51,800 nucleotides of DNA, taken from the NCBI GenBank assembly GCA_022560875.1, contig JADFSH010000010.1, forward strand, positions 1 through 51,800, written 5' to 3'. This stretch comes from Planctomycetota bacterium (GTDB lineage: Bacteria > Planctomycetota > Phycisphaerae > Phycisphaerales > SM1A02). The position numbers and the translations under genes are program-made. Below, piece by piece: positions 1 through 11,058 of this stretch (position 1 is its first letter; the number at the start of each line of letters is the position of its first letter). Under the pieces are notes generated by a model that was not told the origin of the DNA, ran no database searches, and saw nothing but the letters and a program-made list of their open reading frames with translations.

Positions 1-517
1 CATCCAGCAGGCCTGCTTCAACCGCATAGCCTACGGGGGAATGGGGTACGGTCTGATGGAGGATTTTTCCCCGTTGACCGACAATGAGGATCATCGAATC
101 ACCCACATGGTATGGACGGACGGTTGAGCCTTCGATTTCGACCGCCGCGATGGTGGTGGCGGCACCGATCCCGAGTTCAGATACCCTGATATTGGCCTGC
201 TCAATACCCTCCATGATTACATCGCGCAGGATTCTGTTCCGGTCACCGGCCTTCCGGGCACATTCCGCGAGTGTTTGCAATGTCAGTTCCGCGGCGACAG
301 CGCCTCCCGGCTGTCCCCCCACGCCGTCGGCCACCGCGAGAATTGCCCGATTCTCGTCAATGGGGATTATCGCCGCAGCGTCCTCGTTGTCGGACGCTTT
401 CTCAGGACTGCGTGCGGAGTACACATGGACAAGGCCCGAGGCAATGGAAGCGCACTCATGAAGTTCCCCGTTTTGGCGGGCAAAGAATATGGCGTGAGAT
501 GGATTAGTGCAGTCCAT
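1..517 (-). CDS. PP2C-family serine/threonine phosphatase, C-terminus cut by window edge
   Basis: The minus-strand frame opens at ATG 517-515 and runs off the window, giving about 172 residues of an N-terminal portion. It shows PP2C landmarks: SDNED near residues 42-46, VADGVGGQPGG at 62-72 (metal-binding Asp and the Gly-rich turn), GAATTIAAV near 118-126, and HVGDSMILI at 137-145, which corresponds to the GDSRxY strand. Family members dephosphorylate Ser/Thr-phosphorylated proteins using two Mn/Mg ions and often oppose Hanks-type kinases. No kinase gene is visible here. It lies downstream of the FliN-like and pyrB genes on the same strand. The start is chosen as the first ATG in the conserved frame; the ribosome-binding site is weak. 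The family is fairly sure; the substrate is unknown. Confidence 0.8.
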   Translation of the reverse strand, partial: MDCTNPSHAIFFARQNGELHECASIASGLVHVYSARSPEKASDNEDAAAIIPIDENRAILAVADGVGGQPGGAVAAELTLQTLAECARKAGDRNRILRDVIMEGIEQANIRVSELGIGAATTIAAVEIEGSTVRPYHVGDSMILIVGQRGKILHQTVPHSPVGYAVEAGLLD

Positions 518-661
518 AACCAGCAGTCTATGTGGTTAATTCGGCACTTGACGCTCCCTGCATCGGCAAAAATTGCCTGTCGACGACTGACATTGAGCGA
601 CAAAGCCCCATCCAGGGCCTCGGAAGGATGATTTCAGGGTAAAATCGTGTCAAACCGGCGA

Positions 662-1033
662 TTATTGTCCGGCCAGCATTTGCTCAGCCAATGCTTCGGC
701 ATCAATCTCGCTGTCGCCATCCGAGGCAGAATTGGCGTTTCCATCCGCTAAATCGCACTTAGCTTTCTTGTTTCCCATCGCCTCGATGCGCTGTTTGATA
801 TCGCCTACGAAGGTGATACGAACCCCGAAATTTTCTCCCACCTTCACAGCTTTACCCATGGCGATACCCTGATTGTTGACCAGAATCTCCAAGTCCTCCT
901 CCGATCCCTTGGGTAATTCAATGATCGCCCCGGGAGCGAGGTTTCGAACTTCCTCCACGGATAACTTGTGCTTTGCGATCAGGACGATCAGCGGCACTTC
1001 CAATTGCAATAGACACTTTAAATCAGTGGGCAT
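662..1033 (-). CDS. fliN: FliN/SpoA-domain flagellar switch-like protein
   Basis: This 123-residue protein is mostly one SpoA (surface presentation of antigens) domain at about residues 5-75: a hydrophobic LLQLEVPLIVLIAK strand, then APGAIIELPKG, LEILVNNQGIAMGKAVKVGE and FGVRI, which is the standard FliN order. The C-terminal 40 residues are acidic and end in EALAEQMLAG. FliN forms the lower C-ring of the flagellar motor with FliM and FliG; SpoA domains also occur in type III secretion sorting platforms. No other flagellar gene is in the window, so the role rests on the fold alone. It sits between pyrB and a PP2C gene on the same strand with gaps above 100 bases, so co-transcription is uncertain. 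Confidence 0.72.
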   Translation of the reverse strand: MPTDLKCLLQLEVPLIVLIAKHKLSVEEVRNLAPGAIIELPKGSEEDLEILVNNQGIAMGKAVKVGENFGVRITFVGDIKQRIEAMGNKKAKCDLADGNANSASDGDSEIDAEALAEQMLAGQ

Positions 1034-1147
1034 GGGCGGTTTATCGGCTTGAGAGAGGTGTCAGGTTGAGAGGCGGTTTAGCTATGACCAACAGCTTCAT
1101 ATCAAATTCAGCGATGATCGGACCCCCTAGTTGTCCTGACTGCTTTA

Positions 1148-2304: not shown

Positions 2305-3012
2305 ATGGCGAAGCTGAGTTGGTTGTTTTTTGTCCTGCTGATCCTGTCCGGATGTGCCTCGGAGCGGGGGCCGGAGTTTCTCATCATTCCCGCCTCCCAG
2401 TATCAGGCGGCGTTTGATGCTGCGGATGAGGTGATCAGGGTCGAGCGCATGCCCCCCACCCTCCGCGACCGACGGGGAGGCATCATCGAGTCCGAGCCGC
2501 GCATTGCCGGCTCCATCCTCGAGCCTTGGCGGAATGACAACGCCTCGTTCGAGCAGACCATGGAGAACACCATCTCCTTTCAGAGACGCAGGGTGCGGGT
2601 GGAGTTCACTCCCGCGGACTTCAATGCCTCTCCGCCTGCGGATCAGAATCAGGCACTTCCCGGCCCGGATGTGGTCGGCATTGGCGAACCAATGCGGGAC
2701 CTCACCCGATATGACGGCGATCTGGAACTGCGGGTGTGGGTCTATCTGGAGCGGTCCTACACCTTCGGCGTGAGGCGGAGTGCCTGGACGCAGAGCCTGC
2801 GTTCGCAGATGCAGATCATCTCGACGGAGACGGGCGAGGCATTGCAGGCCGAATCGACCCTCGCGCCGCCCAACTGGTCGGAGCGGCGTTCAATCGATCC
2901 GGATCGGGGAACCCCGATCACGCCGTCGGTATGGTCTCCAATCTCCCGTGACCCGGCCTTTGAGCGAAGGTTGCTTGAGAAGATTCGCAAGCGGCTGGAT
3001 GAGACGGGGTGA
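2305..3012 (+). CDS. Predicted lipoprotein of unknown function
   Basis: A 235-residue protein starting with MAKLSWLFFVLLILSGCAS: a short hydrophobic signal and an LSGC lipobox, so it is probably lipid-anchored after cleavage before Cys16. I chose ATG 2305 because it places the signal correctly; an upstream TTG at 2281 would add eight residues. The mature part is rich in Arg, Glu and Pro, with no domain I recognise. It contains RVWVYLERSYTFGVRRS, suggestive of beta structure, and ends in a basic helix (KIRKRLDE). The gene stands alone between divergent pyrB and the nuoD promoter. Confidence 0.7.
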   Translation: MAKLSWLFFVLLILSGCASERGPEFLIIPASQYQAAFDAADEVIRVERMPPTLRDRRGGIIESEPRIAGSILEPWRNDNASFEQTMENTISFQRRRVRVEFTPADFNASPPADQNQALPGPDVVGIGEPMRDLTRYDGDLELRVWVYLERSYTFGVRRSAWTQSLRSQMQIISTETGEALQAESTLAPPNWSERRSIDPDRGTPITPSVWSPISRDPAFERRLLEKIRKRLDETG

Positions 3013-3208: not shown

Positions 3209-4498
3209 ATGCCCTATACCCTCCAACCAGATCAAGGCTACGACCTCGATATCGAGTCCACCGAGTATCTCAAGGATCATGTTCAGGCCTCTGATCGGTG
3301 GATACTCAATTTTGGTCCCCAGCACCCGGCCACCCACACCACCCTCCGTATCGTCCTTGAACTGGACGGCGAGCGGATCGTGCGGGCCATCCCCCACATC
3401 GGATACCTCCACAGCGGCTTCGAGAAGCTCGGCGAGCATCACGACTACAACCAGTATGTCTGCACCATAAGCCGCATGGACTACAACAGTCCCATTGTCA
3501 ACGACATCGCCTGGCACGGCGCGGTGGAAAAACTCTTCGACATCGATATCACTCCCAAGTGCAAGGTGGTGCGCACGATCCTGGCCGAACTCGGACGCAT
3601 CCAGAACCACCTGCTCTGCGTGGGAGCCGCGGGCATGGACCTGGGGGCTTTCACCGCGTTCCTCTATGGCTTCAACGAGCGCGAGTTCATCTACGACATC
3701 CTCGATTACATCTCCGGGCAGCGCTTTCACCCCGACTGGACGCGGGTGGGGGGGGCGATGTGTGAGATCCCCGATGATGAGATCTTCAAGAAAATGGTGC
3801 GCAACTTCATCGACAAGCGTCTGCCCAAGGCGATCAAGGACATCGAGACGCTGCTCAATCGCAATCGCATCTTCATTGATCGCACGCAGAACGTTGGGGT
3901 GGTGACGCATGATGAGGCGATCGCCTGGAGCCTGACCGGGCCGCTGGCCCGGGCCTCCGGCGTGAAGCGCGATATCCGCAAGGATGAGCCCTACCTGTGC
4001 TACAAGGACAACTGGGATGGACGGGGAGCCGAGCCGGTGACATTCTCCGTGCCCATCGCCAACGATGGTGATGTCCTTTCCCGCTATCTTGTCCGCCTTG
4101 AAGAAATCAAGCAGTCGGCGAATATCATCGACCAGCTAATCGACAACCTGCCCGAAGGCCCCCTCGATACCCACCCCGAAGGCAAGGCCCGCGTGCCTGC
4201 AAAAGGTGATATCTACGGCTCCATCGAGGCGACCATCCAGCAGTTTGAGATCTTCATGACCAATCGCGGCTGGGACACACCGGTCGGCGAATGTTACGGC
4301 TGCCACGAATCGCCCAACGGCGAACTGGGCTACTTCATTGTGGCCGATGGCGGCCGCTGCCCTTGGCGGGTGGCGGTGAGGCCGCCTTCGTTTCTCAACT
4401 ACCAGTGCTTCCCGAAGATGCTGGAGGGTCACATGCTTGCCGACCTTGTCGCCGTGATCGGTTCGATTAACGTCATCGCCGCGGAGCTAGATAGATAG
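3209..4498 (+). CDS. nuoD: NADH-quinone oxidoreductase subunit D (49 kDa type)
   Basis: Subunit of the peripheral arm of respiratory complex I that forms the quinone-binding cavity with NuoB. The 429 residues match the family length. Visible landmarks: FGPQHPATH at 35-43, HIGYLHSGFEK at 63-73, YDYNQYVC-like and MDYNSP stretches, GVGGAM-type GGAMCEIPDD, RPPSFLNYQ near 395-405 and the closing IGSINVIAAELDR. NuoC is not fused to it, so nuoC must be elsewhere, as must nuoA, nuoB and nuoG-N. The start at 3209 gives an N-terminus of normal extent. It is first in the run nuoD-nuoE-ORF79-nuoF, all plus strand with gaps under 60 bases. Confidence 0.96.
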   Translation: MPYTLQPDQGYDLDIESTEYLKDHVQASDRWILNFGPQHPATHTTLRIVLELDGERIVRAIPHIGYLHSGFEKLGEHHDYNQYVCTISRMDYNSPIVNDIAWHGAVEKLFDIDITPKCKVVRTILAELGRIQNHLLCVGAAGMDLGAFTAFLYGFNEREFIYDILDYISGQRFHPDWTRVGGAMCEIPDDEIFKKMVRNFIDKRLPKAIKDIETLLNRNRIFIDRTQNVGVVTHDEAIAWSLTGPLARASGVKRDIRKDEPYLCYKDNWDGRGAEPVTFSVPIANDGDVLSRYLVRLEEIKQSANIIDQLIDNLPEGPLDTHPEGKARVPAKGDIYGSIEATIQQFEIFMTNRGWDTPVGECYGCHESPNGELGYFIVADGGRCPWRVAVRPPSFLNYQCFPKMLEGHMLADLVAVIGSINVIAAELDR

Positions 4499-4532
4499 GA
4501 AGATTCACCGCGGTGAGTCATGAGGAATACCT

Positions 4533-5057
4533 ATGGCCTGGAATGTCAAACCGTCCGCGACGACGCAGATCCAGAAGCGCGATGCGCCCTATCTCACCGA
4601 GAAGATGGCCCGGCGATTCACCCGTAAAATCCTGCCCCGTTATGAAACGAAGATGGGTGCGCTGATGCCGATCCTGAACGAAGTGCAGCATGAATATGGC
4701 TACATTCCCTATCAGTCGATGATCGAGATCGCAACCTTCCTCGAGATACACCCCGGTGATGTGCTCGACATGGTTTCCTTCTACGAGGAGTATCACACCG
4801 AGCCGGTCGGCAAGTACGTCATCGGCGTGTGCCAGTCCATCGCCTGCGAGGTGTGCGGGCATCAGGCGATACTCGACCATCTGCGGGGCAAGCTCGGCAT
4901 CGAGCCGCACGAGACCACCGATGACGGCAGGTTTACCCTCCTGACCATGGAATGCCTCGGGGCCTGCGAAGGCGCGCCTTGCGCCTTGATCAATGACGAC
5001 CGCCATGACAATCTCTCGATCGATCAAATCGACCGACTTATCGACGACTTGGAGTAA
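4533..5057 (+). CDS. nuoE: NADH-quinone oxidoreductase subunit E (24 kDa type, 2Fe-2S)
   Basis: Part of the NADH-dehydrogenase module of complex I, holding the N1a [2Fe-2S] cluster. At 174 residues it has the expected length. The four ligand cysteines are Cys100 and Cys105 (CQSIAC) and Cys141 and Cys145 (CLGAC), the normal Cx4C plus Cx3C pattern. The helical N-terminus carries YGYIPYQSM and the DMVSFYEEYHTEPVGKY stretch typical of NuoE. A purine-rich GAGGAAT sits just before the ATG. It lies 34 bases after nuoD and belongs to the same operon. Confidence 0.95.
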   Translation: MAWNVKPSATTQIQKRDAPYLTEKMARRFTRKILPRYETKMGALMPILNEVQHEYGYIPYQSMIEIATFLEIHPGDVLDMVSFYEEYHTEPVGKYVIGVCQSIACEVCGHQAILDHLRGKLGIEPHETTDDGRFTLLTMECLGACEGAPCALINDDRHDNLSIDQIDRLIDDLE

Positions 5058-5102
5058 TCGTATCGCGTGCGGCCCCGGCCGCATTGTTCGTTGTACCTGA
5101 CT

Positions 5103-5342
5103 ATGGAAGAACCATTGAACAAACGCAGCTTGATGAGATCAGTGGGTTTGTTTTGCCATCACATCATGGATGCGGTTAGGTCTGATTCTGCAGCACGGAA
5201 GAAACATGTCGTCAACAAGAAAGTCGAGGAGATCGAAAAGGAAAACCTGATCCTCCGTCGCACCACGATCGATGAAATCGAATTCAAAAAAAGGGAACCT
5301 TCCCCCTCTCCGTATTCCCACGATCACAATTCTGAAAGCTGA
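5103..5342 (+). CDS. Small conserved-looking protein between nuoE and nuoF
   Basis: A 79-residue reading frame fills the gap between nuoE and nuoF on the same strand. The sequence starts MEEPLNKRSLMRS, has a GLFCHHIMDAV segment, then a charged helical part (KKVEEIEKENLILRR, likely coiled coil) and a polar end rich in Ser, Pro and His. It has no signal peptide and no domain I recognise. The in-operon position, 45 bases after nuoE and 36 before nuoF, argues for a real gene. Base composition is somewhat more AT-rich than the nuo genes. An upstream ATG at 5067 is possible but would begin in the nuoE trailer. Confidence 0.5.
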   Translation: MEEPLNKRSLMRSVGLFCHHIMDAVRSDSAARKKHVVNKKVEEIEKENLILRRTTIDEIEFKKREPSPSPYSHDHNSES

Positions 5343-5378
5343 TCACAGAACGCAGCCAGTTCACTCCCGAGATACCCC

Positions 5379-6728
5379 ATGCCCGTCACCGATCCCGTAC
5401 TCACCAAGCGTATTCCCACTTGGCCCTGGGGCGATCCCAAGGATCGTCATATCGTCACCTACGACGAGTTCACGAAAACCGGCGGCTATCAGGCCCTCGA
5501 AAAGGCCCTCGACATGACACCCGCCGAGGTGGTGGATGTGGTCAAGGACTCCCAACTTCGAGGCCGGGGAGGCGCGGGTTTTCCCTGTGGTCTGAAGTGG
5601 ACGTTTCTTCCCGAAGTAGACGGCGGGCGTCGATACCTTGCCGTCAACTGTGATGAGGCCGAGCCGGGGACGTTCAAGGATCGCCTGCTCATCGACTTCG
5701 ATCCGCACATTATCCTCGAAGGCATTGCCATAACCTGCTACGCCTGTCATCTTGACACTGCGTATTTCTTCATTCGGGGCGAATACCGCCATCAGGCTCG
5801 AGTCGTCGAGAATGCCATCACCGAAGCGTACGACAAGGGCATCTTCGGCAAGCAGGGACTCATGTGCGGTAAGAGCAAGTACGCCGTGGAGTGCTATCTG
5901 CATCGCAGTGCGGGTGCGTACATCTGTGGCGAGGAAACGGGGTTGCTGGAGGCGATCGAGGGAAAGCGGGCATGGCCCCGCATCAAGCCGCCGTTTCCCG
6001 CGGTCAAGGGATTGTTTGGTCGTCCAACCATCGTCAACAACGTGGAGACGCTCGCCGCTGTCGGCCCAATTCTCACCAATGGAGTTCAGTGGTGGACGAA
6101 GATGGGCTGCGAATCATCGATCGGCGCCCCCCCGAGTTACGGTCCCAAGCTCATGGGGGTTTCGGGTCATGTCACCACCCCCGGCGTCTTTGAATGCGAT
6201 CTCGGCATCCCCCTGAGCAAACTCGTCAATGATTTTGCGGGCGGGATGCGCGGCGGGAAGAAATTCAAGGGAGCCATCGCGGGCGGTGTGTCGATGGGCA
6301 TCCTCGGCCCCGATCAATTCGATGCCGAGATGGACTTTGACATCGGGCGCAAGTACGACGTGCTCGGACTGGGAACCGCTTGCCCGACAATCTTTGATGA
6401 GGACACCGACATGGTCGCGGTGGCCCGGAATATCGCGCGATTTTTCAAGAACGAATCGTGCGGCCAGTGCACTCCCTGTCGAGAGGGCACGCAGTGGATA
6501 TACATGCTGCTTTGTCGCATTGAGAAAGGCTACGCCACCAGCAAGGATCTCGATCTGCTGTTGGAGATTTCCGGTTCGATGGGCATCATGCCCGGCACCA
6601 CCATCTGTGGCCTCGCCGACGGCAATAACTGGGCGGTGCGGACCATCGTGAACAAGTATCGCGACGAGTTCGAGGCGAGGATCCGTCCGAGCAGCGTGCC
6701 GGTGGGGATGACGGTTGGAGCAAGTTGA
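5379..6728 (+). CDS. nuoF: NADH-quinone oxidoreductase subunit F (51 kDa type, FMN, 4Fe-4S)
   Basis: Binds NADH and FMN and starts electron flow into complex I. The 449 residues contain GRGGAGFP at 62-69 and VNCDEAEPGT at 89-98 (FMN and NADH site), GAYICGEETGLLEAIEGKR around 179-197, the SLBB-type middle region, and the N3 [4Fe-4S] ligands Cys361, Cys364 and Cys367 (CGQCTPC) with Cys410 (TTICGLAD). Downstream one expects nuoG; instead the gene is followed two bases later by a lipoprotein gene and then by repeated copies of its own 3' end (7504-7542, 8351-8554, 10142-10267). This copy is the only full-length one and appears intact. Confidence 0.96.
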   Translation: MPVTDPVLTKRIPTWPWGDPKDRHIVTYDEFTKTGGYQALEKALDMTPAEVVDVVKDSQLRGRGGAGFPCGLKWTFLPEVDGGRRYLAVNCDEAEPGTFKDRLLIDFDPHIILEGIAITCYACHLDTAYFFIRGEYRHQARVVENAITEAYDKGIFGKQGLMCGKSKYAVECYLHRSAGAYICGEETGLLEAIEGKRAWPRIKPPFPAVKGLFGRPTIVNNVETLAAVGPILTNGVQWWTKMGCESSIGAPPSYGPKLMGVSGHVTTPGVFECDLGIPLSKLVNDFAGGMRGGKKFKGAIAGGVSMGILGPDQFDAEMDFDIGRKYDVLGLGTACPTIFDEDTDMVAVARNIARFFKNESCGQCTPCREGTQWIYMLLCRIEKGYATSKDLDLLLEISGSMGIMPGTTICGLADGNNWAVRTIVNKYRDEFEARIRPSSVPVGMTVGAS

Positions 6729-6730
6729 TC

Positions 6731-7461
6731 ATGCGATTGTTTCTGGCACTTTTCGGATTCGTGCTCTTTTGCGGCTGCAGCGGCGAAGTTGAGCATGACG
6801 CTTCGGAGGCCGAGGCGATTGTCCAGACGGCGGATCCCGCTCGCTTTGAAGTATTCCAGAGACTCCCGGAAAAATTGAGTGATGCCGTTGTTTTTCGCAA
6901 GGAGCGGCATGATCGTCTCGTACTCGACGAAATGTTCAGCGGTGTGATGACCGAAAAGGAGTTTCTTAAAGTCTTTCTCGACTATCAATCGCAAATCGAG
7001 CGAGTCATCGACGCCACGCTGACCATGACGTCACCCATACCGCCGGCACCGGATTTTGACGATGACGACACACAGAACGATCGCCATTTAGACACCGTGC
7101 CCGGGAGATTGCTGAACAACAGTCGACTGCTTCTGGCAGATGCCATCCGTTGCTGGGAAATCGGAAAATACAAGAGCTGTGGCCGGCGTTATGCGGCGTC
7201 AATGCGTATCGACCGTGCATGCTTGATGATGTGGACACAATGACTCAATTTCGCGGCGCTCAGGTGTGCATTCCCACAATCCTGGAACTGGACCTGCGTC
7301 TCGCCGACGGCCTGGCCGAGCGGCTTACCGAACCTGCTCGAGGTGAGTTGCTGAATCTGATTCTGAAAATGGATACGAGCCGCGTACCGGGGTGGGACGA
7401 TTCATCGCCCGTCGCCGAAGCAAAGCGTCGGGCCATTCGCTATCTCGAGGATGGCCGCTAG
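6731..7461 (+). pseudogene. Frameshifted lipoprotein gene A, paralogue of the 7545-8276 gene
   Basis: Starts at ATG 6731, two bases after the nuoF stop, with a lipoprotein signal (FGFVLFCGCSG). The first frame ends at a TGA at 7241-7243 after RIDRAC and a short out-of-frame tail. The homologous sequence continues in another frame from about 7220 (DTMTQFRGAQ, then ILELDLRLADGLAERL) to the TAG ending at 7461. Both halves align with the intact paralogue next door (FNNSRLLVTDALRCW and IIELELRVNDGLGDKL there). The whole span is 731 bases against 732 in the paralogue, so a single lost base near 7220-7240 is the likely lesion, unless it is a sequencing error. Function unknown. Confidence 0.75.
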
Positions 7462-7464
7462 ACA

Positions 7465-7508
7465 TTCGCAGGCCGCAACGTCAGTATCGCACGAGTCCGG
7501 CCTGCGAA
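7465..7508. repeat. 10-bp perfect inverted repeat between lipoprotein A and the nuoF-tail copy
   Basis: TTCGCAGGCC at 7465-7474 pairs with GGCCTGCGAA at 7499-7508 across a 24-base loop. It begins four bases after the lipoprotein A stop and its right arm overlaps the start of the short nuoF-tail copy. It could act as a transcription terminator without a T-run, or mark a recombination join. Confidence 0.55.
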
Positions 7509-7542
7509 CGTGGCGATGGGAGTGACGGTTGGAGCAAGTTGA
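7504..7542 (+). repeat. nuoF 3'-end copy 2 (39 bases, last 12 codons and stop)
   Basis: Read in the nuoF frame this gives ANVAMGVTVGAS then TGA, against SSVPVGMTVGAS then TGA at the end of nuoF. The matching run continues past the stop into TCATGCG, the start of the following lipoprotein gene, just as nuoF runs into lipoprotein A. It is therefore a duplicate of the nuoF/lipoprotein junction. Confidence 0.75.
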
Positions 7543-7544
7543 TC

Positions 7545-8276
7545 ATGCGTGTTGTTTCTCTTCTTCTCTGCGTCATCTGCCTGACCGCATGTGCAGAAGT
7601 GGAGAGCAAGGACGACCCGATCATCGTTCCTGATCTATCGAGCATCGATTCCCCCTTCGATGCTTTCGTGCGGCTGCCGAAGCAGCTGCATGATGGCCTG
7701 AAGATGCGCAAGAGCCATGTCGATCACGTTGCCATCGAGGACATCTACGCGACGCAGTTCGAGTCCGAGGAGTTGGTCGAGCTGCTCGTTCGCTGGCAGC
7801 CGTACATCATCAACCTCATCGAAGCTTCGCATCGTATCGAGCCGCCCTTGCCTGCCGAACCCAAATACACCGACGCCGAGCTATCCGAAGGCGCGTACCT
7901 GAACGGCATCACCGCCCGCCTGTTTAACAATAGTCGTCTGCTCGTGACCGACGCCCTTCGTTGCTGGTCGATCGGCGATTACGACGGTTGCGGGGCACGC
8001 TTTGATGCAGTCCTCCGCATGGCGATCTGCTCGTATCGCAGTGAGGAGACGATGCACCAACACAACGGCACGCTGTTGCTGCAAACCGTCATTATCGAAC
8101 TCGAACTGCGCGTCAACGACGGCCTGGGCGACAAGCTCGCCCCCGATCGCGTCCGTGAGATTCTCGCCACGATACGCGATCTTCAGGAGGCTCGCCTCCA
8201 GGCCGGCATTCGGTCGAACACCGGCGATCGGATCCTGGGTCATCTCATCGAGGTCTTCAGTCAAGAAGGTGAATGA
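7545..8276 (+). CDS. Lipoprotein B of unknown function, intact paralogue of the frameshifted gene
   Basis: A 243-residue protein beginning MRVVSLLLCVICLTACAE, a signal with lipobox LTAC. The mature part is alpha-helical in character, with RLPKQLHDGLKMRK, an acidic middle, the block NNSRLLVTDALRCW about 140 residues in, and ELELRVNDGLGDKL. These blocks are shared with lipoprotein A upstream, where about a third of residues match by eye. ATG 7545 was chosen over the longer upstream frame because it places the signal and mirrors the lipoprotein A start. The stop overlaps an ATG (ATGA at 8273-8276) that opens the frame of the next nuoF-tail copy. Function is unknown; a membrane-anchored role is inferred from the lipobox. 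Confidence 0.7.
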   Translation: MRVVSLLLCVICLTACAEVESKDDPIIVPDLSSIDSPFDAFVRLPKQLHDGLKMRKSHVDHVAIEDIYATQFESEELVELLVRWQPYIINLIEASHRIEPPLPAEPKYTDAELSEGAYLNGITARLFNNSRLLVTDALRCWSIGDYDGCGARFDAVLRMAICSYRSEETMHQHNGTLLLQTVIIELELRVNDGLGDKLAPDRVREILATIRDLQEARLQAGIRSNTGDRILGHLIEVFSQEGE

Positions 8277-8350
8277 CCAGCATGCCGGGCTTTTTTGCGC
8301 AACTCCAATCTTCCGAGAGTCGGATTCACACCCGGAAGTTCCGGCGGCCG

Positions 8351-8554
8351 TGCGGGATCGAGAAGGGTGATGCCACCAGCAAGGATCTCGATTTGCTGCT
8401 TGAGATTTTCGGTTCGATGGGCATCATGCTCGGCAACACCATCTGCGGCCTCGCCGACGGCAATAACTGGGCCGTGCGAACCATCGTGAATAAGTATCGC
8501 GAAGAGTTCGAGGCAAGGGTGAGGCCCGTGAGCGTGGCTCTTGCGGCTTTGTAG
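8351..8554 (+). pseudogene. nuoF 3'-end copy 3, open frame but lacking the catalytic domain
   Basis: Matches NuoF residues 379-440: about 54 of 62 residues are identical by eye, starting CGIEKGDATSKDL and running through TICGLADGNNW to RVRPVSV, then ending VALAAL and TAG. Only one of the four N3 cluster cysteines is present and the FMN/NADH domains are missing, so it cannot work as NuoF. The frame has no stops and can be read from ATG 8273, which overlaps the lipoprotein B stop, as a 93-residue protein. It shares YREEFEARVRPVSVA with copy 4 but not with nuoF itself. Confidence 0.8.
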
Positions 8555-8567
8555 TCTATGGTATGAT
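8541..8567 (+). promoter_or_regulatory. Possible promoter of the AT-rich three-gene module
   Basis: TATGAT at 8562-8567 matches five of six -10 positions. A TTGCGG at 8541-8546 lies 15 bases upstream, short for a -35 element. It sits between the end of nuoF-tail copy 3 and the first module gene at 8592, so the leader would be short. Confidence 0.35.
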
Positions 8568-8591
8568 TCGGACGATCTTCTTTGGGTTGTA

Positions 8592-9125
8592 ATGATGTTT
8601 GAAATTGCCAAATTATCTGGGACGCCTGAACGCGAGATTCCTCTAGGCACAATGCGAGGAACTCAAATTCCAAATGCTGTGGCCATTGCCGAAGTGCCTG
8701 ACTATGCCTCTAGGCGTTACGACAGGATGCGCATGTCACATCAATGGGAACAACGTAAACATCCATGTGGTATCTACAACTGTTTCGGTCATGTCTTTGC
8801 CACTCGTCGAACAAGTATTTACGATGATGAAAACATGTGGATTAGACTGATTCAGGCAGAAGATGGATATCGTCTTATCGGTCCAAGTGATCAAGCCGTT
8901 GTAGGCGATATAGCTTTGTATTTGCACAAGGCGGATCTGAGTTTTCTTCATGTAGGACGAATTGTTGTGGCCGACTATACTGGAGATCTACCATTGATCA
9001 AAGTGCTGAGTAAATGGAATGATACTGCAGGTGAGGACATACACGTGATACATGATGTACCATATCCAAGCATGGGATTAGAATGTGAAATTGAGATCTG
9101 GACTGATCGAAGGGGCGACACATGA
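8592..9125 (+). CDS. Uncharacterised protein, possible papain-like (NlpC/P60-like) fold; first gene of AT-rich module
   Basis: 177 residues from ATG 8592 (a second ATG follows at once at 8595). No signal peptide. The order of features recalls small papain-fold proteins: a Cys in GIYNCFGHVFATRR about 60 residues in, VVGDIALYLHKAD, then SFLHVGRIVVADY with a candidate His, and a closing KVLSKWNDTAGEDIHVIHDVPY segment. That reading is inference; no catalytic assignment is certain. Codon use is clearly more AT-rich than nuoF or ybeY, pointing to recent arrival. Its stop overlaps the next start by four bases (ATGA at 9122-9125), so translation is probably coupled. Confidence 0.55.
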   Translation: MMFEIAKLSGTPEREIPLGTMRGTQIPNAVAIAEVPDYASRRYDRMRMSHQWEQRKHPCGIYNCFGHVFATRRTSIYDDENMWIRLIQAEDGYRLIGPSDQAVVGDIALYLHKADLSFLHVGRIVVADYTGDLPLIKVLSKWNDTAGEDIHVIHDVPYPSMGLECEIEIWTDRRGDT

Positions 9126-9637
9126 CAAGCATACCCAAAATAATTGAGGCCTTTTGCCTTGACCGATTTGAAGACCAAGTTGCCGCCGCTTCAACACCTG
9201 CTGTTTTACGCAAGCTCATACGGAATACTGATGAATTCGCAGTTTTGCAGGAACAGATCTTTTCGGGCGCCATCAACTCAACGCATATTAAAGCATCCGT
9301 GGCGGAGTTGTTGAAGTCGTTCGAAAAAGGCAAGCCATTTCGATTTCAATCGGCTTTAGCGGCAATCGCCATAGCAATGGAGAACTCATTCTCGGAATAC
9401 AGCGATGAATACCTTTCGTCGCTCTCGAAGGTTCGTGTCGCTGAACTCTCTATTGCAACTAGAGTAGCAGAGCTTGCGATTTCGTTGAAATCACATAGCA
9501 CTTGGACTCCGCCACACGAGATAAAAGGTGTGTTAGTAGGGTTGACATCTGGACCAAAGACAATCCAATTTGTGGAACTTCAGGAACAAGAGTCGATGAG
9601 TTGTGATCTGACCGAGGTGGTATATGCCCAGGCTTGA
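9122..9637 (+). CDS. Uncharacterised helical protein, second gene of AT-rich module
   Basis: 171 residues with no family I recognise. The first 130 residues look all-alpha (LRKLIRNTDEFAVLQEQIF, then VAELLKSFEKGK, SALAAIAIAMENSF, LSKVRVAELSIATRVAELAISL). The last 40 residues may form a small beta region (GVLVGLTSGPKTIQFVEL). No signal peptide or membrane segment. It overlaps the previous gene by four bases and the next by fourteen, so the three are almost certainly one operon and may form a complex. Base use is AT-rich like its partners. Confidence 0.6.
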   Translation: MTSIPKIIEAFCLDRFEDQVAAASTPAVLRKLIRNTDEFAVLQEQIFSGAINSTHIKASVAELLKSFEKGKPFRFQSALAAIAIAMENSFSEYSDEYLSSLSKVRVAELSIATRVAELAISLKSHSTWTPPHEIKGVLVGLTSGPKTIQFVELQEQESMSCDLTEVVYAQA

Positions 9638-10079
9638 ATTTTTCATCGTCGCCCGATCGTTTGCGGCGGACAAGTTTACAAATAGACTTAGTCTCTTTGA
9701 CATCTTTGAAACAGTCCAACCCATACGATTCCCTGCGGTAATTCCGAGAATGGTGGCAATGAGTGCGTGGCACTATGGAAATGCAGAGGAGAGGCAAGAG
9801 CAATTTCAGGCGACAGTGATTATAAAGATGCCAGGGCCTGAAGAAGATGTCATCATCAATACCAACTTTGAAAACCCGGGAATACTTCACCATACTGTCG
9901 CAGGAGTTTCAAATACTATTGTGTCACGGCCTGGAACCATTGAAATTGAACTCAAACTGAATGGTGAGCATCAAGCTTTTCACAGGATTCAGGTTGTAGA
10001 GGCAAATGACAAGCAGATAGATGACGGATCTTTACTTTACCCTGGGTCGAATGAACAACAAGAGGCGAAGGCCGAATAG
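9624..10079 (+). CDS. Uncharacterised protein resembling DUF6941-type domains, third gene of AT-rich module
   Basis: 151 residues starting MPRLEFFIVARSFAADKF. The pattern of an N-terminal strand, then NRLSLFDIFETVQ and FPAVIPRM, followed by beta strands (ATVIIKMPG, GTIEIELKLNGE), resembles small bacterial proteins of the DUF6941 type, which have a KLSLIGIFD-like motif in the same place. The match is from memory of the motif and is tentative. The C-terminus is polar (SNEQQEAKAE). It begins inside the end of the previous gene. A 60-base AT-rich spacer separates it from nuoF-tail copy 4. Confidence 0.6.
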   Translation: MPRLEFFIVARSFAADKFTNRLSLFDIFETVQPIRFPAVIPRMVAMSAWHYGNAEERQEQFQATVIIKMPGPEEDVIINTNFENPGILHHTVAGVSNTIVSRPGTIEIELKLNGEHQAFHRIQVVEANDKQIDDGSLLYPGSNEQQEAKAE

Positions 10080-10141
10080 TTACACACTCGTAATCTGCAA
10101 TAAATAATCGCGATACACGAATAGAGCCAACAAGTGCTAGG

Positions 10142-10267
10142 ATCTGCGGCCTCGCCGACGGCAACAACTGGGCCGTGCGTACCAACGTGAACAAGTATCG
10201 CGAAGAGTTCGAGGCAAGAGTCAGGCCCGTGAGCGTGGCAGTGAGTGTGACGGTGGGAGCGGGTTGA
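10142..10267 (+). pseudogene. nuoF 3'-end copy 4 (last 41 codons and stop)
   Basis: In frame it reads ICGLADGNNWAVRTNVNKYR, then EEFEARVRPVSVAVSVTVGAG and TGA, matching NuoF residues 409-449 with the stop in the same place. It keeps the VTVGA ending that copy 3 has lost, and shares REEF and RVRPVSVA with copy 3 rather than with nuoF. It begins abruptly after AT-rich spacer DNA and marks the right edge of the accessory locus before ybeY. Confidence 0.8.
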
Positions 10268-10407: not shown

Positions 10408-11058
10408 ATGGAGATCGATCGATCCACGGCTAAGACTAAGACGTTCATGAACACGAACACAACCACGATACAAACCACTGATCAAGCCACCGGGAGTCGG
10501 GGCGGGGAACCGGACGATCCTGGCTCGTCGGCGGATTCCGATCTTCCTCCTGAACCTGTCCCTGTCAATGCCCAGTCAGATTCAAACCGCTCTCGACCAG
10601 CGGTCGATGTCATTGGGCCAGAGAGCGACAGCCAGGAAGTTCTTGATACTGTCTGGGTACGGGATCGTCTGCGGGAAGCGGTTCGTCTCATCGATCGACC
10701 GGTGACGAGAATCACCGTTTCAATCATCGACGATACCGAAATGTCGCGTCTGAATAAGCGACATTGCGGGGTTGATTCCTCGACGGATGTGCTGACGTTT
10801 CCAATGTCAGATGCTCAGGCTCCGATCGAGGCGGACATCGCGGTGGGGGTGGATGTCGCCCGCCGCGTGGCCGGCGAATTGGGACATCGCGTCGAACATG
10901 AATTACTGCTTTACGCCTTGCACGGTGTGCTGCACTGCGCGGGTTTCGATGACCACAGTGAGAAAGACTATCTCACGATGCACGCCGAGGAGGATCGTAT
11001 TCTCCGGGCCGTCGGAATTGGTGCAGTCTTTGAAGGAAGAAGTGACAGATCATGCTGA
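10408..11058 (+). CDS. ybeY: Endoribonuclease YbeY (rRNA maturation factor) with N-terminal extension
   Basis: A metal-dependent RNase involved in 16S rRNA 3'-end processing and ribosome quality control. The core at about residues 80-216 carries ITVSIIDDTEMSRLNKRH, the STDVLTFPM strand and the zinc motif HGVLHCAGFDDH. The first 75-80 residues are a low-complexity extension rich in Thr, Ser, Pro and Asp that the family normally lacks. Starting at ATG 10447 would shorten it by 13 residues but not remove it. The stop overlaps the start of the next gene by seven bases. Pairing of ybeY with a CorC/HlyC gene is common in bacteria. Confidence 0.9.
   Translation: MEIDRSTAKTKTFMNTNTTTIQTTDQATGSRGGEPDDPGSSADSDLPPEPVPVNAQSDSNRSRPAVDVIGPESDSQEVLDTVWVRDRLREAVRLIDRPVTRITVSIIDDTEMSRLNKRHCGVDSSTDVLTFPMSDAQAPIEADIAVGVDVARRVAGELGHRVEHELLLYALHGVLHCAGFDDHSEKDYLTMHAEEDRILRAVGIGAVFEGRSDRSC

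Follow-up and report, generated by a model that had tools for sequence, protein, structure and literature searches.

The displacement of gene 3' ends by modules is already known from rhs loci and from T6SS immunity arrays. For rhs, a C-terminal displacement model predicts a locus anatomy like the one seen here (Jackson et al. 2009, PMC2935791), and a circular intermediate with a single crossover was proposed (PMC2935791). In Vibrio cholerae, T6SS effector-immunity modules are displaced sequentially (Kirchberger et al. 2017, PMC5361080), and homology-facilitated illegitimate recombination, which has been described (PMC3240628), was proposed for the T6SS arrays (PMC5361080). The locus analysed here, behind a planctomycete nuoF gene, shares with rhs an intact gene and, behind it, a series of dissociated pieces of that gene, which vary in length and are separated by low-GC material, and it resembles rhs in downstream displacement and homology-limited insertion. 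However, an rhs fragment joins a variable toxin tip and alters the protein, whereas here a conserved housekeeping gene end forms the tail, the NuoF protein is essentially unchanged and the cargo lies behind the stop. The anchor is nuoF and not a member of the Rhs family, and the tips are conserved NuoF ends. As in the V. cholerae arrays, new modules appear to join a conserved anchor at one end and to push older material downstream; there, the genes concerned are secretion genes under diversifying selection, whereas nuoF and serC, a second case described below, are metabolic.

Integrative elements also occupy the 3' ends of protein-coding genes, as SGI1 does in trmE and e14 in icd, and they have decayed CIME relatives. 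Like these, the inserts studied here regenerate the gene end, have direct repeats on both sides and possibly accrete. Unlike these, they carry no integrase, no constant core was seen, and those behind nuoF measure about 0.8-1.7 kb apiece. A literature search for nuoF as an insertion site in planctomycetes found nothing relevant.

The window is the whole contig C152 (51.8 kb) of the metagenome-assembled genome G000, which comprises 3.66 Mb in 226 short contigs with 3.67% contamination. The sequence-only reading had noticed four nuoF 3' ends in the same orientation, and a self-BLAST across all 51.8 kb (E<=1e-4) confirmed that these ends, in a single orientation, are the only internal repeats of the contig (Table 1). 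Since there are no other repeats at this cut-off, chance is excluded. The three dissociated fragments lie downstream of the intact gene in the same order and orientation, have different lengths (54 nt in copy 2, 195 nt in copy 3 and 126 nt in copy 4) and are separated by different modules. The native end was matched by copy 3 at 89.5% (6519-6680 versus 8357-8518, E 3e-56), by copy 4 at 81.7% (6603-6728 versus 10142-10267, E 1e-28) and by copy 2 at 88% (6695-6744 versus 7509-7559, E 4e-10). Copies 3 and 4 matched each other at 93.9% (8441-8538 versus 10142-10239, E 1e-36).

Table 1. Features of the nuoF-ybeY interval and of similar loci in the same genome. Positions refer to the window unless another contig is named.
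Feature	Position	Strand	Basis or remark
nuoF, intact, 449 aa, present 3' end	5379..6728	+	Pfam Complex1_51K 1e-42, NADH_4Fe-4S 1e-27
Module 1, lipoprotein A, frameshifted near 7225	6731..7461	+	no Pfam family; about 30% identical to lipoprotein B
Tail copy 2, eroded nuoF end, stop kept, continuing into the lipoprotein B start	7496..7549	+	81% over 54 nt versus native
Module 2, lipoprotein B, 243 aa	7545..8276	+	homologues restricted to own genome, G001 and, weakly, G074
Tail copy 3, nuoF codons about 376-440, own stop lost	8344..8538	+	89.5% over 162 nt, 84% over 193 nt versus native
Module 3, three-gene operon, AT-rich (about 45% GC)	8592..10079	+	composition; last gene DUF6941 4e-8
Genes of the module 3 operon	8592-9125, 9122-9637, 9624-10079	+	third gene DUF6941
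Tail copy 4, last 42 codons of nuoF and stop, probable original terminus	10142..10267	+	82% versus native, 94% versus copy 3
ybeY, ancestral nuoF neighbour	10408..11058	+	Pfam YbeY 2e-24; synteny
serC, ApeA/HEPN gene, displaced serC tail	G000 contig C12 (L155) 3445-6186	-	second clear case
End of a 116-aa membrane protein repeated past a 337-aa ORF	C193 (L228) 1094-1251, 2441-2599		weaker case; 88.7%
FtsX-type permease end and two further tails	C38 (L188) 146-1143	-	weaker case

Each of the four ends had been read as closing with a stop. This holds for the native gene, copy 2 and copy 4, which alone retain the stop of nuoF. In copy 3, the homology to nuoF ends at about 8538, after RVRPVSVA, and the TAG at 8552-8554 lies in unrelated sequence; its stop is therefore not that of nuoF. 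The motifs REEF and RVRPVSVA are indeed common to copies 3 and 4 and missing from native nuoF, as had been seen. The tails start at various codons of nuoF (about 376, 409 and later). Copy 2 reads RVRPANVAMGVTVGAS up to its stop, and its similarity to the native end extends beyond this stop into the start of lipoprotein B. It looks like the translation start region of lipoprotein B, and it has probably survived because it serves as such.

Lipoprotein A has its start codon 2 nt past the nuoF stop and is read in frame 0 until 7243 and then in another frame. When the two lipoproteins were aligned, they proved to be diverged homologues. The earlier view that a different module follows each tail is thus correct for the operon and ybeY but not for the lipoproteins. 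Among 101 relatives, lipoprotein B homologues were found in the congener G001 (32%) and weakly in G074, and otherwise in its own genome only. The first gene of the operon was absent from all 391 other genomes of the phylum, and its AlphaFold model (pLDDT 29.5) was unusable; the third had distant matches only, in 3 of 300 genomes of the order. A plasmid search with two of the three operon genes and an RNA family search gave no match. Defence profiles searched with the nuoF cargo gave nothing beyond a weak NsnC match at 0.006.

The interval was then compared with relatives from the Planctomycetota, mostly Phycisphaerales. In most relatives that retain both genes together, the gap between nuoF and ybeY is 9-480 bp, and in a few it is 1.2-4.5 kb, with unrelated contents where inspected. 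Copy 4 ends 140 bp before ybeY, a position that matches the nuoF stop in the relatives. Since nuoF adjoins ybeY in most of them, copy 4 is most simply read as the former nuoF terminus, with all the material in between inserted into the nuoF tail and the gene completed anew each time. This supports the original proposal of DNA gained beside a conserved gene end that was regenerated.

Displaced nuoF tails are rare. When a 69-aa tail query, which cannot pick up the short, eroded copy 2, was run against 181 genomes of the family, the host alone gave three matches and every other genome at most one, so extra nuoF tails were present in 0 of the 180 others. A sensitive search of 96 nuoF downstream regions, each against the tail of its own gene, returned nothing comparable. 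The content of the interval does differ among relatives, as had been expected, and is mostly nothing; cargo flanked by tails, however, was found in no second genome among those compared. Neither donor DNA nor a circle nor an empty and filled strain pair was found. In G001, the only congener, a lipoprotein homologue lies just before ybeY in the same interval, and this interval holds no nuoF tail remnants. Two contigs of G001 (L033, 1-330, and L057, 1-400) apparently break within one lipoprotein gene between nuoF and ybeY, and the order there is probably nuoF, lipoprotein, lipoprotein B homologue, ybeY. Another cargo of 4.5 kb, with sigma-factor-like and PDZ-like genes and without displaced tails, was observed between nuoF and ybeY in G013 (L035, 5600-10020). 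In another Phycisphaerae genome (L106), 348 nt from the 5' part of nuoF recur upstream of the gene (4547-4894 versus 6726-7069, 81.6%), possibly a mirror image of the tail pattern.

A tree of the tails had been suggested, and it was built from 77 of them. The native end and copies 3 and 4 formed a group separate from every other tail (96.1/100), the sister species included, and copies 3 and 4 were sisters (79/99). The tails therefore derive from the host lineage or near kin. Of the 7 differences between copies 3 and 4, 6 are at third codon positions, as are 16 of the 27 between the native end and copy 3. With third positions prevailing, much of the divergence arose while the tails were still working gene ends. 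This agrees with alleles of relatives as well as with ends that a single evolving gene had in succession. Residues that are almost never seen in NuoF number three in copy 3 and one in copy 4 and are signs of lost constraint; those of copy 3 are F, L and N, at positions where A, P and T occur in 71, 70 and 73, respectively, of 74 relatives.

The anchor is not private to nuoF, since the same scar was found behind serC when about 1.23 Mb of the host genome was scanned for displaced gene ends, with paralogues excluded partly by eye. Here, serC is intact and a cargo gene of 481 aa begins directly at its stop. The displaced serC tail of 132 nt is 92% identical, ends at the stop and lies 65 nt before rlmL. 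All 10 differences between the two serC tails fall on third codon positions and one alters a residue; by chance this would be expected at (1/3)^10, about 2e-5, assuming position-free mutation. The cargo gene, with the domains ApeA_NTD1 (2e-29) and HEPN_Apea (2e-20), is a putative foreign, defence-like gene, and ApeA-like genes elsewhere in the order were limited to distant matches in 2 of 349 other genomes. For the cargo genes, these ApeA-like domains are the only basis for a predicted function.

Two weaker cases were also found (Table 1). The repeats in C193 differ without a third-position bias, and the spacers in C38 are hairpin-rich, with inverted repeats of the type TTGAATGGTTAGTTTAAT and without a clear gene. 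After removal of paralogues and repeated domains, no displaced gene ends of this type were detected in 400 kb of a complete genome of the family and in 1.23 Mb of relatives' loci, the latter being centred on nuoF and not a random sample. Dockerin C-termini, zinc-ribbon C-termini and cox3 paralogues imitate the scan pattern and were excluded on inspection.

On balance, we lean towards reading the locus as successive insertions stacked at the nuoF 3' end, which arose by homologous recombination with an incoming nuoF tail and its cargo. Incoming DNA from a relative would carry the gene tail joined to the cargo and would pair with the resident nuoF tail. It may enter as a circle via one crossover, or as a linear piece with homology at one end and illegitimate joining at the other. 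Both the circle with one crossover and homology-facilitated illegitimate recombination yield the observed product, and the data do not separate them. The result would be an intact nuoF with a donor-derived end, followed by the cargo and the displaced resident tail. Repeated rounds would push older modules and tails towards ybeY, which would make copy 4 the oldest end. The tail copies, their order, rarity and clade membership, the ancestral nuoF-ybeY adjacency and the second instance at serC are observed, whereas we infer the donor DNA, the order of events, the recombination route and the expression. From the close starts of lipoprotein A and of the serC cargo behind the respective stops, the new genes probably make use of host transcription and translation.

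Unequal crossing-over and recombination through the tail had both been considered. Compared with pure unequal crossing-over, the latter is the better fit, given that the modules differ, the tail differences are mainly at third positions and serC shows the same scar. The displaced tails also vary in how long they are and where they start, which would be expected if there were no fixed site. Against recombination through the tail, the displaced tails of the best loci fall within about 110-200 nt, a possible hint of a defined site, and the lipoprotein homologue of G001 sits in the same interval without tails. Copies 3 and 4, being nearer to each other than to the native end, could be two halves of one displaced tail that was split by the operon.

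The main rival to recombination through the tail is a recombinase acting in trans, which we regard as unlikely. Small elements without an integrase, similar to CIME, would enter gene 3' ends and bring a replacement end as e14 does. The direct repeats terminate exactly at the stop in serC and in nuoF copy 4, every repeat pair opens with a perfect run of about 23 nt, and the genome has several tyrosine recombinases, including a type of 216 aa that consists of the catalytic domain only and is present in about six copies. The 23-nt run of serC differs in sequence from that of nuoF copies 3 and 4. However, the absence of an integrase noted earlier was confirmed, with no recombinase in the nuoF interval or between serC and its tail; the start points differ within nuoF, no common core was seen by eye across nuoF, serC and the other cases, and the nuoF tail was absent from a collection of viral contigs. 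These closely similar copies, of 216-253 aa where read and apparently without an N-terminal domain, were observed on the contigs C90, C93, C193, C68 and C215 (L226-L230). C93 has repeats of about 80 nt (near 1310, 3400, 3770 and 4180) alternating with small ORFs, in what looks like an integron-like array. Integron-type sites were rejected as the cause at nuoF, where the repeated site that lies beside the small recombinase was not found.

Serial tandem duplication appears more doubtful still. Unequal crossing-over would have copied a unit of nuoF tail and lipoprotein, the units would have diverged and an unrelated operon would later have split one of them. The homology of lipoproteins A and B, which have the 3' end of the leader in common, speaks for this, and copies 3 and 4, with an overlap of 98 nt, could be a single split tail. 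But identity is only 30% between the lipoproteins against 81-88% for the leader, and copy 4 is followed by ybeY and not by a lipoprotein. Only with lipoproteins A and B does the segment behind the first repeat recur behind another; copy 3 leads into the operon. Duplication also leaves serC unexplained, with its single foreign cargo gene and tails that differ at third codon positions only. An assembly artefact, in which sequences of co-existing strains were joined into one contig, is very improbable: the metagenome assembly, with its 226 contigs and 3.67% contamination, and tail pairs resembling alleles from different strains would allow it, but the joined sequences show no visible overlap at the joins and no gaps, and the same directed 3'-end anatomy occurs at two unrelated loci on different contigs.

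As far as our searches went, what is new is that conserved housekeeping gene ends act as anchors, that one genome uses more than one gene in this way and that the cargo lies behind the stop; the pattern rests on one genome and one assembly. It seems that new DNA can enter at ordinary gene ends with no integrase nearby. As a general route, we propose only tentatively that small promoterless cargo, including a defence-like gene, may travel on the 3' end of a conserved housekeeping gene and be inserted directly behind its stop in relatives, with the host gene restored each time and a dated series of displaced ends left behind. If this is right, highly conserved gene ends would offer foreign genes a generic way in, because the sequence shared with any relative suffices for recombination and the insert is harmless. 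The scars would be searchable in any genome and usable for ordering events, and the route would account for the presence of lone accessory genes, with no mobility genes, behind core genes and under a host promoter.
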